NCBI GenBank assembly: GCA_013204605.1
Contig: JABMNI010000055.1
Coordinates: forward strand, 1 to 38,105
Reading direction: 5' to 3'
DNA length: 38,105 nucleotides
Origin: Ignavibacteria bacterium
GTDB lineage: Bacteria > Bacteroidota > Ignavibacteria > Kapaibacteriales > Kapaibacteriaceae
In this document: piece by piece, positions 30,383 through 34,391 of the stretch
How the letters are laid out: every line of letters begins with the position of its first letter
Position numbering within the stretch: the stretch's first letter is position 1
Notes under the pieces: generated by a model
Databases searched by the model: none
What the model was told of the DNA's origin: nothing
Seen by the model: only the letters and a program-made list of their open reading frames with translations
Translations under genes and position numbers: made by a program

Positions 30383-30406
30383 AACAGGACTTAGTTAGCC
30401 TTAAAA
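30375..30406. repeat. Direct repeat covering two convergent stop codons
   Basis: AGCCTTAAAA occurs at 30375-30384 and 30397-30406, 22 nt apart. The first copy contains the TAA of the TPR lipoprotein gene (30380-30382) and the second contains the complement of the clpS stop (30401-30403). The genes are thus separated by only 18 nt. No hairpin terminator is visible. Confidence 0.7.
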
Positions 30407-30685
30407 TTCGAGCTGAGTATGCAGCGCAATCTCTTCCAGCACTGCCGACACCCTTATACACTCCTCTAATGCGCCGTCAAACACAACGGCCTTCCCCTTG
30501 TAATGAACCTCGTTGGTAAGCGCCTCAGCCATAGTTACGCCGCAATTAATGGCCAGCGTGATTTGGTGGGAAACCTCTTCGAACGTGTGGATTTCGTCAT
30601 TGAACAATATTACCCTTGCCTGAAGGACGATCTCCTCGGTAACCACGGTTTCGTGCTGTTCAATCTCGTATAGTTCAGTGATCAT
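30401..30685 (-). CDS. clpS: ClpS, adaptor for ClpAP protease
   Basis: ClpS delivers N-degron substrates to ClpA or ClpC and changes protease choice. The ATG at 30685 gives 94 residues, the family's normal length; a TTG at 30766 would add 27 poorly matching residues. The core shows ARVILFNDEIHTFEEV (strand plus the ND pair that contacts the N-degron), then the AEALTNEVHYKGKAVVFDG segment and a C-terminal helix. It is the only convincing - strand gene in the window and converges on the TPR lipoprotein gene. No clp ATPase lies nearby. Confidence 0.88.
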   Translation of the reverse strand: MITELYEIEQHETVVTEEIVLQARVILFNDEIHTFEEVSHQITLAINCGVTMAEALTNEVHYKGKAVVFDGALEECIRVSAVLEEIALHTQLEF

Positions 30686-30750
30686 AATGTCGATATGCAA
30701 GGGGCTTAATGTATATTCAAATTGTAACGAGTACAAATTTACAAAAACAG

Positions 30751-30758
30751 TATCTTTG
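30751..30758 (+). promoter_or_regulatory. Candidate Bacteroidota-type -7 box before the CADD-like gene
   Basis: TATCTTTG at 30751-30758 fits the TAnnTTTG -7 element of Bacteroidota primary sigma promoters, 55 nt before the CADD-like start. No clear TTG -33 element stands at the normal distance. It lies in the divergent region shared with clpS, where the - strand also shows TAAATTTG. Confidence 0.35.
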
Positions 30759-30812
30759 TTCCTCAAATAAGTAACTCATTTTGTGCCTTACCTATATTAA
30801 AAGGTCGTTATT

Positions 30813-31505
30813 ATGACAACCGAAGAATTTCTAGTTCAGCTCGATGAAATAGTTTCCGAGCGCCATATGTTGCAGCACCCATTCTATTTGATGTGGAATG
30901 AAGGAACGCTGTCGTTAGATATGTTGCGCGAATACGCCAAGGAGTATTACCATCAGGTGCGGGCCTTCCCGACCTTTGTGAGTGCTACGCATTCGAATTG
31001 CGATGACATGGAAGTGCGTCAGATGCTACTTGAAAATCTCATCGAAGAAGAGCACGGTCCAGATAATCACCCAGAACTGTGGCTCAGATTTGCCGATGCT
31101 TTGGGAGTTGATCGCAGGGAAATCACAACGAGAAAGTTTTTGCCACACACCCGTGCTTCGGTAAGGATTTTGAAGGAACTAGCCGGACGCAATAACCCGT
31201 CGGAAGGTCTAGCGGCATTGTATGCCTACGAATCGCAAATCCCCGAGATTTCAACAACCAAGATCGACGGTCTAAAAAAATGGTACAATCTCGACACCAA
31301 GAATGCCCTAATCTTCTTCGAAGTGCACGAGCATGCCGATGAAATTCACCGCACGGTTACTCGCGAGGCATTGGTTAGACTTTGCAATACTGACGAGCAA
31401 AAACAAGCTGCGCTTGACTCTGCCAGAGAAGCCGCCGATGCATTCAATTTGCTTTTAGACGGCGTGTATAACACATGGTGTTCTGAAAAAGCATCGCTTA
31501 ATTAA
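30813..31505 (+). CDS. CADD-family heme-oxygenase-fold protein, probable self-sacrificing p-aminobenzoate synthase
   Basis: This 230-residue all-helical protein of the TenA/PqqC/heme-oxygenase fold has a ribosome site AAGG at 30801. The dinuclear metal ligands E79, H86, E140, H172, D176 and H179 are all present, as are Y25, Y41, Y139 and K150. Each equals the residue I recall for Chlamydia CADD minus two (E81, H88, E142, H174, D178, H181, Y27, Y43, Y141, K152). CADD makes p-aminobenzoate for folate by cleaving its own tyrosine, with the lysine as amino donor. The numbering match rests on memory, but the constant offset argues against chance. It probably starts an operon with a class II amidotransferase 22 nt downstream. 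PqqC-like or thiaminase functions are less likely. Confidence 0.82.
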   Translation: MTTEEFLVQLDEIVSERHMLQHPFYLMWNEGTLSLDMLREYAKEYYHQVRAFPTFVSATHSNCDDMEVRQMLLENLIEEEHGPDNHPELWLRFADALGVDRREITTRKFLPHTRASVRILKELAGRNNPSEGLAALYAYESQIPEISTTKIDGLKKWYNLDTKNALIFFEVHEHADEIHRTVTREALVRLCNTDEQKQAALDSAREAADAFNLLLDGVYNTWCSEKASLN

Positions 31506-31527: not shown

Positions 31528-32436
31528 ATGTGTCGATTTATAGCTTACATAGGTCCGCCGGTTCTTGCTGACGACCTCCTATACAAACCGCAGTTCTCGT
31601 TAATTACCGCTCAGTCCATGAATGCAGGCGAGATGAGTGTGAGTGTTAATGGAGATGGGTTTGGAATTGGTTGGTTTGATCCAAGACTGGATAATGAGCC
31701 TTGTGTTTTTCGAAGCATTAAGCCAGGTTGGAGCGACCAGAACTTAAAGTTATTGGCTAAAAAGATCTATTCCCCGTGCATTTTTGCGCACGTTCGTGCC
31801 GCAAGTCCTGGCATAACAGTCGAAGAAGTTAACTCGCATCCATTTTGGTGCGGCAAGCTTATGTTTATGCACAACGGAATGCTTTCGGGATTCAAACAAA
31901 TGCGCCGGCGCATGCTAAGGTTGTTGAATGACACTGCCTACGATGCAATTCAAGGTTCGACGGATTCGGAACATTTGTTTGGACTCTTCCTCAACCATAT
32001 CGAAGATCCTCATGGTCATGTGTCGTGCGAGGAAATGGTTCACGCCATGCAGCAAATGTTCAAGGACCTTAATTCACTCATGGTCGAGCATGAAATCAAG
32101 CAGCACTCGTATTTGAATTTCGCCGTTTCGAACGGCACTAGTCTAATAGCTGTCAGGTACACCACTAATCCTAACGTGCAACCTTCATCACTGTATTACA
32201 TGCATGGCAAAGAGTATCATTGTAACGATGATGTTTGTATGATGGAACCAACGTACAGCAAGCCGAGCGCTATTGTTGTAGCTTCGGAGCCCTTCACAAC
32301 CCGCCGTTCAGATTGGATGAAGATCGAGCGCAATAGTATGATGGTAGTTGATGAGACAATGCGAATACATTTCCATCACATAGAAATGGAAATCGAAAAA
32401 ATGGATTTTGAATCTATCGCCCCGGAGATCGGATGA
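31528..32436 (+). CDS. Class II glutamine amidotransferase (YafJ/EgtC-like)
   Basis: This 302-residue Ntn-type amidotransferase releases ammonia from glutamine. C2, exposed after Met removal, is the nucleophile (MCRFIAYIG). The GDGFGIGW loop, FAHVRAAS (glutamine-binding Arg), the NSHPF segment and MHNGMLSG complete the active site. There is no attached synthetase domain, so it acts alone or hands ammonia to a partner. EgtC in ergothioneine synthesis has this size, but no egtB or egtD gene is here. It lies 22 nt after the CADD-like gene and overlaps nuoL by ATGA. Confidence 0.82.
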   Translation: MCRFIAYIGPPVLADDLLYKPQFSLITAQSMNAGEMSVSVNGDGFGIGWFDPRLDNEPCVFRSIKPGWSDQNLKLLAKKIYSPCIFAHVRAASPGITVEEVNSHPFWCGKLMFMHNGMLSGFKQMRRRMLRLLNDTAYDAIQGSTDSEHLFGLFLNHIEDPHGHVSCEEMVHAMQQMFKDLNSLMVEHEIKQHSYLNFAVSNGTSLIAVRYTTNPNVQPSSLYYMHGKEYHCNDDVCMMEPTYSKPSAIVVASEPFTTRRSDWMKIERNSMMVVDETMRIHFHHIEMEIEKMDFESIAPEIG

Positions 32437-34391
32437 ACATTGCAGCGTTGATTCCACTCTTCCCATTAATCGGCTTTGCGATAATTGGGTTGTTTGGAAA
32501 AAAACTGAAAAACGAGAAGTTGATTGGCATAATTGGTAGTGGTGCAATCCTTGCGTCGTTCGCCGTTGCCGGCACACTTTTTGTGCAAATGCTGGGAATG
32601 CCCGCAGAAGACCGACTGTCCATCGTAAAGGTCTACACATGGATTGCTACCGGATCTTTTACCGTTGATATTGCCTATCAAATTGACCAATTATCATTGC
32701 TGTTTACCCTGATTATCACCGGAATTGGATTTCTAATTCACGTGTACTCAATCGGGTACATGCATGGCGATAAAAGCTTCCCGCGATTTTTCGCCTATCT
32801 GAACTTGTTTGTTTTCATGATGTTGAACTTGGTCCTGGCCAGCAACTTTCTGCTCACGTTTCTTGGCTGGGAGGGCGTTGGACTTGCATCCTATTTGCTA
32901 ATCGGATTTTGGTATGATAAGAAATTCGACGGTTCCCATATAACGTGGACCGGCGATGCTGCAAAAAAAGCATTCATTGTCAACCGAATTGGTGATTTCG
33001 GTGTACTCATCGCAATGTTTATGCTGTTCAATCTATTTGGCACGTTAGATTACACAACAATAAATGATTCAGCCACCGTAGTTCTTTCACCCAACGGAAC
33101 CGCTGTAATTCTCATTACGCTGGCACTTTTTCTTGGTTGTACCGGCAAGAGCGCTCAAATTCCGTTATCAGTTTGGCTGCCGGATGCTATGGCAGGGCCC
33201 ACGCCGGTTTCGGCCCTCATCCACGCAGCTACCATGGTAACTTCGGGTATCTTTTTGGTTAGTCGCACAAATGTGTTGTTCGCTCTGGCCCCAACTACAA
33301 TGGCCATCGTTGCAGGAATTGGAATTAGCACGGCACTTATCGCAGGCACGATTGGTATCGTTCAAAACGACATTAAAAAAGTACTCGCATATTCAACTGT
33401 ATCGCAACTCGGATTCATGTTTGCTGCATTGGGCGTGGGTGCATTCACAGCCGCTGTGTTTCACGTAATGACGCATGCTTTTTTCAAAGCACTCTTGTTC
33501 CTAGGATCTGGCTCAGTAATTCACGGAATGCACCACGAGCAAGACATTCAAAAAATGGGTGGACTCAAAAAGCACATGCCCATTACCTACCGAACATTTT
33601 TCATTGGTACTCTGGCAATCTCCGGCATCCCGTTTTTCTCAGGATTCTTTTCCAAGGATGAAATTCTTTGGTATAGTTTCTTGAATGGCGGAATGCTCAT
33701 TTGGGGCATTGGCGCACTGGCCGCATTCTGCACCGCCTTCTACATGTGGCGCGTAACCTCGCTCACATTTCACGGTGAAGAGCGCTTCGACGTAGCTCAT
33801 GTGCATCCGCACGAGTCTCCCAAAACCATGACCGTCCCGTTGATAATTCTAGCTGTACTAAGTGTGGTAGGGGGCTTGGTGGGAATCCCGCATGTCCTCG
33901 GACACTACCTTCACATCCCGAATTTGTTAGAGTCGTGGCTTGAACCTGTCTTTGCCGGTGGGTCTGCACTCATTCGCCAACACACAGGCGATCACACTTC
34001 AACCGAGCTAACATTGATGACGGTGTCTACAGTGATTGCTATTGCAGGCATTATGTTAGCCCGTTCCATATACTCTGGTGGACCTGAAAAATCTGACGCA
34101 TTGAAACAGAAATTTTCAACCTTGCACAAGATTCTTTGGAACAAGTATTACATCGATGAGATTTATCACATGGCATTTGTCGGACCTATCCTTGCTGCAT
34201 CGCGCGACTTTCTTTGGAAGATTGTTGATGTTGTGGTAATTGATGGTATCGTGAATGGATCAGCTACCGTTGTTGGTGCAACCGCCTCGGTGCTGCGAAA
34301 AGCTCAAAGTGGAGTAGCTCAGAATTACGCACTAGTTATGTTAATTGGAATTATGGCTCTATTGAGTCTCGTACTGTATTCAACACACTAA
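32433..34391 (+). CDS. nuoL: NADH-quinone oxidoreductase subunit L
   Basis: NuoL is the distal antiporter-like, proton-pumping subunit of complex I in the inner membrane. The 652-residue protein has the full family length, with about 14-16 membrane helices. Core motifs include FLGWEGVGLASYLLIGFW, SAQIPLSVWLPDAMAGPTPVSALIHAATMV (key Lys and His helix region), then HVMTHAFFKALLFLGSGSVIHGMHHEQDIQKMGGL. The C-terminal lateral helix and anchor (about 600-652) are present, so it is not the shorter DabB or MrpD type. It overlaps the amidotransferase stop by ATGA, and no other nuo gene is in the window. Confidence 0.93.
   Translation: MNIAALIPLFPLIGFAIIGLFGKKLKNEKLIGIIGSGAILASFAVAGTLFVQMLGMPAEDRLSIVKVYTWIATGSFTVDIAYQIDQLSLLFTLIITGIGFLIHVYSIGYMHGDKSFPRFFAYLNLFVFMMLNLVLASNFLLTFLGWEGVGLASYLLIGFWYDKKFDGSHITWTGDAAKKAFIVNRIGDFGVLIAMFMLFNLFGTLDYTTINDSATVVLSPNGTAVILITLALFLGCTGKSAQIPLSVWLPDAMAGPTPVSALIHAATMVTSGIFLVSRTNVLFALAPTTMAIVAGIGISTALIAGTIGIVQNDIKKVLAYSTVSQLGFMFAALGVGAFTAAVFHVMTHAFFKALLFLGSGSVIHGMHHEQDIQKMGGLKKHMPITYRTFFIGTLAISGIPFFSGFFSKDEILWYSFLNGGMLIWGIGALAAFCTAFYMWRVTSLTFHGEERFDVAHVHPHESPKTMTVPLIILAVLSVVGGLVGIPHVLGHYLHIPNLLESWLEPVFAGGSALIRQHTGDHTSTELTLMTVSTVIAIAGIMLARSIYSGGPEKSDALKQKFSTLHKILWNKYYIDEIYHMAFVGPILAASRDFLWKIVDVVVIDGIVNGSATVVGATASVLRKAQSGVAQNYALVMLIGIMALLSLVLYSTH

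Follow-up and report, generated by a model that had tools for sequence, protein, structure and literature searches.

A predicted self-sacrificing p-aminobenzoate synthase of the CADD family in Kapaibacteria

Self-sacrificing enzymes are rare, and the synthesis of p-aminobenzoate (pABA) is a classic drug target. The two subjects meet in the CADD family, whose mechanism of self-sacrifice is already known from Chlamydia and Nitrosomonas and whose biochemistry has been described (PMC11965152, PMC13108848). The closest described systems are CADD/CT610 of Chlamydia trachomatis (PDB 1RCW, 8VA9, 8VAG), NePabS (NE1434) of Nitrosomonas europaea and the 4-aminobenzoate synthase 9PJ4; the latter two belong to the same family, with the same sacrificial pair of residues and a phenylalanine at position 177. 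An earlier note on the DNA discussed here had called this route best known in an obligate pathogen; it is not restricted to such organisms, since NePabS of N. europaea was shown biochemically to follow it and homologues of Chloroflexi and Sphingomonas have been listed (PMC11965152). Farther away, PqqC, TenA, BesC and UndA have a similar seven-helix fold and, for the heme-oxygenase-like (HDO) enzymes, a similar metal site, but they act on free substrates. In our literature search, neither CADD nor the formation of pABA turned up as the subject of a paper on Kapabacteria. What we add to the known mechanism is its lineage-wide use free of chorismate, a natural loss mutant, and a compact subfamily of 185 aa that holds both sacrificial residues.

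The gene studied here lies at 30813..31505 (+ strand) of the window, i.e. the whole stretch of 38,105 nucleotides that was analysed; it starts with ATG, stops with TAA and encodes 230 aa. By sequence comparison it clearly belongs to the CADD family: the TIGR04305 profile matches it with 282.3 bits, the curated cut-off being 200 bits, and with an E-value of 2.3e-84, so that the match is far beyond chance. The nearest solved relatives found by phmmer are 9PJ4 (1e-51), 1RCW (9.7e-47, 163 bits, 37% identical to CT610) and 8VA9 (2.8e-46). The AlphaFold (AF2) model, with a pLDDT of 96, has the seven-helix heme-oxygenase-like fold and superposes on 1rcw_B with a Z of 32.6 and an rmsd of 1.1 Å over 214 residues. 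Profile score, ungapped alignment with CT610 and predicted fold thus confirm the CADD-type identification made in the earlier note. An alignment scan of viral contigs for CADD copies returned 62 pattern stretches, among which 0 relatives.

The alignment to 1RCW/CT610 runs without gap, at an offset of +2, from residue 5 of the query to beyond H179, so that every residue the earlier note had named falls on its CADD counterpart. The six metal ligands are E79 (31047..31049, + strand like all codons given here), H86 (31068..31070), E140 (31230..31232) and H172, D176 and H179 (31326..31349), and the fold and the six ligands are common to the Chlamydia protein. Y27, Y43, Y141 and K152 of CADD all have their equivalents: Y25 (30885..30887), the predicted sacrificial tyrosine, which is also Y25 in NePabS; Y41 (30933..30935); Y139 (31227..31229); and K150 (31260..31262), the predicted amino donor, K159 in NePabS. 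Y25, Y41, K150 and all the metal ligands are invariant among 33 diverse homologues, and the residues at the Y25, Y41 and K150 positions are essential in NePabS (PMC11965152). Two further residues might take part in a radical relay: Y45 (30945..30947), which is Y45 in NePabS, and W90 (31080..31082), counterpart of the tryptophan W99 examined in that enzyme and absent from the list of the earlier note. NePabS differs by a loop insertion of ~9 residues, absent here. In the homologue of another genome (G134, L131:1786-2529) a K stands in place of the ligand E140, and the stretch from H172 to H179 is altered as well.

One difference had been overlooked in the earlier note: Y170 of CADD is replaced here by F168 (31314..31316), the counterpart of F177 in NePabS. 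Y141 and Y170 of CADD adjoin the metals, and NePabS has a phenylalanine at both positions, so that its F148 stands where the present protein has Y139 (PMC11965152). The NePabS mutant F148Y, which carries the same Y/F pair as Y139/F168, functions about equally with Fe/Fe and Mn/Fe, while F177Y switches the enzyme to Mn/Fe (PMC11965152). The Chlamydia-type arrangement, linked to strict Mn/Fe use, has a tyrosine at both 141 and 170; here Y139 is retained but the second residue is F168. From this pair, read in the light of the two NePabS mutants, we predict an enzyme that uses Fe/Fe or accepts both Fe/Fe and Mn/Fe, and not one strictly dependent on Mn/Fe. Among 93 longer sequences sampled the metal-proximal pair is Y/F in 80, Y/Y in 12 and V/Y in 1, the Y/Y carriers being Chlamydiae, Verrucomicrobia and one Ignavibacteriales.

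The organism itself is represented by a draft assembly of 2.69 Mb in 86 contigs, rated 100% complete; among named organisms, Candidatus Kapaibacterium and Ignavibacteria MAGs stand close to it, with protein identities of up to 87%. The lineage is known from environmental MAGs and, to our knowledge, not as an intracellular pathogen, unlike Chlamydia; a death-domain role such as that reported for Chlamydia CADD is not expected for this protein. The canonical set pabABC is absent from the assembly. No PF00425 protein (chorismate-binding; PabB, TrpE) was found in it, the domain being present in 14/14 control genomes, and the search for chorismate synthase found none. PabA/TrpG gave no match above cut-off, all the matches below it lying inside longer ORFs of 405, 515 and 560 aa. 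PabC is missing as well, since the two class-IV aminotransferases of the genome are both of the IlvE type.

Downstream in the pathway, FolB and FolK are present, together on contig C67, but DHPS (TIGR01496), the consumer of pABA, has no match in the draft. Neither has DapA, searched with the protein of a relative (G059). In two relatives dapA and folP lie side by side, beside a response regulator and gltX, and in the host genome (G000; C83, L177) this synteny ends directly after the response regulator. That DHPS is missing together with dapA, at the very point where synteny breaks, suggests a gap; the absence of both genes is likely due to the assembly or to a rearrangement, a true loss of folP staying conceivable.

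Next to the CADD gene itself one does not find the folate genes that adjoin it in Chlamydia. A class II glutamine amidotransferase, EgtC-like, begins 22 nt downstream (31528..32436, +; PF13230, 72 bits; EgtC TIGR03442 at 187.5 bits, under the cut-off of 218.65) and is followed by nuoL, for subunit L of the NADH-quinone oxidoreductase (32433..34391, +). Upstream and on the other strand lies a ClpS-like adaptor (30401..30766, −), a weak match of 30.8 bits for a cut-off of 117. CADD, amidotransferase and nuoL are adjacent in 24/24 named Kapaibacterial loci displayed (L048-L076) and also in most loci of families f1 and f2, the genes upstream of CADD differing between these two families.

We then consider that the protein is a single-turnover pABA synthase consuming its own Y25 and K150 and replacing PabABC, to which we give a probability of nearly nine in ten. 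It would be an O2-dependent dimetal enzyme of the HDO superfamily, in which the side chain of Y25 would give the ring of pABA and, with O2, its carboxylate, and the amine of K150 would become the amino group, a spent protein being left after one pABA. By replacing PabABC, CADD would let folate synthesis be fed from tyrosine obtained elsewhere, and thus proceed without chorismate synthase or any chorismate-binding enzyme. Catalysis, self-sacrifice, metal use and the use of pABA for folate are properties that we infer for this protein, and its reading as a pABA synthase draws support from its sequence, its fold and the genomic setting.

The order-wide comparison, carried out on 99 genomes of the Kapaibacteria order, shows how frequent this situation is. 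Full-length CADD occurs in 62 of them and weaker relatives in 13. Fifty of the 62 have neither PF00425 nor aroC, the gene of chorismate synthase. In the remaining 12, every PF00425 protein was classified, and all are TrpE or isochorismate synthase except in G123 and G136, so that PabB accompanies full-length CADD in 2/62 genomes; in G123 CADD is intact and the two coexist. The short PF00425 proteins of seven genomes of family f4 are all PabB. Mutual exclusion between CADD and PF00425 over the 99 genomes is not significant (p 0.10), because PF00425 also takes in TrpE and isochorismate synthase. PabB on its own is found in 1/74 genomes with an intact CADD or with the compact form described below (mini-CADD), versus 8/25 of the others (Fisher p 4.7e-5), a test that was picked after the PF00425 test had failed and that ignores shared ancestry, so that, the genomes being related, the p-value overstates their independence. 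The 74 include G197 and G200, which have only a partial mini-CADD with unreadable N-terminal residues and were counted as intact.

The second genome with PabB, G136, is of particular interest. Its CADD (L132:1667-2350) carries the changes Y25F, Y41F and K150F while keeping all six ligands; the residues lost are exactly those essential in NePabS. The same genome encodes a PabB-PabC fusion (L169:560-2961) and PabA. In the tree this CADD falls, with a support of 89, among intact sisters of family f35; its branch is long, 0.91 versus 0.11 and 0.16 for them, and it is possibly a repurposed metalloenzyme. This is a single case, and as the contig of the PabB-PabC fusion is short (8.4 kb) and the contamination of the assembly is 3%, it depends on correct binning.

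These data bear on what else the protein could be. Most HDO enzymes use free small molecules (PMC13108848), and a CADD-fold enzyme might likewise form pABA by catalysis from a substrate supplied from outside, be it free tyrosine or some other aromatic. Against this, both sacrificial residues are invariant in 33 diverse homologues, and the pair is lost together with Y41 in the homologue of G136, a genome endowed with PabB; besides, the yield of NePabS is not raised by added tyrosine, chorismate or p-hydroxybenzoate (PMC11965152). We therefore hold external supply of the substrate for quite improbable. Membership in a neighbouring HDO family, PqqC, TenA (thiaminase II) or BesC, is scarcely credible: the common fold and weak profile matches speak for it, but the scores of 68.2 bits for PqqC (TIGR02111), 15.5 for TenA and 30 for BesC are far under the respective cut-offs of 240, 130 and 500, and in the PqqC/D alignment the positions matching Y25 and K150 hold neither Tyr nor Lys.

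It could also be that the main product of this HDO enzyme does not serve folate synthesis, either because pABA has another use or because the function is not pABA synthesis at all. The genus g74 points in this direction: in six genomes of it (G121, G141, G146, G151, G161, G165) CADD is intact but neither HPPK nor DHPS is detected, so that keeping CADD does not go hand in hand with folate synthesis in every case. The DHPS missing from the assembly of the window, and the conserved neighbour of CADD, a glutamine amidotransferase with no assigned role, could be read in the same way. However, a DHPS match is present in nearly all the remaining f1 genomes that were searched, the exception named being G190 (86% complete), which gives a MetH-type match only, and HPPK is matched in all of them but G190; FolB and FolK are moreover present in the host of the window. 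A destination other than folate thus appears improbable for the protein of the window, and self-sacrificing pABA synthesis feeding folate is the reading we retain.

Families f4 and f31 (L011, L119-L127) contain the compact relatives of CADD, of ~185 aa, which reach 71 to 85 bits with TIGR04305. These mini-CADDs keep Y25, Y41, Y45, K150 and W90, as well as the ligand set with D176 changed to E, and their metal-proximal aromatic pair is reversed, F139/Y168. Profile comparison with the full CADD family gives a probability of 99.7%, with both sacrificial residues aligned, and the model of a mini-CADD (pLDDT 95.6) has CtCADD as its top PDB match (TM 0.84). A search of plasmids gave no match. In family f4, mini-CADD occurs in 10 genomes and PabB in 7, never both (0), a distribution that does not reach significance (p 0.06). 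Thirteen genomes of this family (e.g. G172, G148, G206) have HPPK and DHPS while PabB, CADD and mini-CADD are undetected. Judging from sequence and model, mini-CADD is a possible second class of self-sacrificing pABA synthases, and it may define the minimal enzyme.

We somewhat favour the idea that self-sacrificing pABA synthesis is old in the order and often its sole route to pABA, most CADD carriers being without chorismate synthesis, and that it includes the compact class of ~185 aa of f4 and f31 with its F139/Y168 pair. The sequences themselves yield predictions: metal use can be proposed from two positions, and a natural loss mutant is found where PabB-PabC is present. Whole families of this lineage appear to depend on a costly self-sacrificing route in genomes devoid of chorismate synthase, and this absence offers a plain reason for the route, which would need tyrosine and not chorismate.
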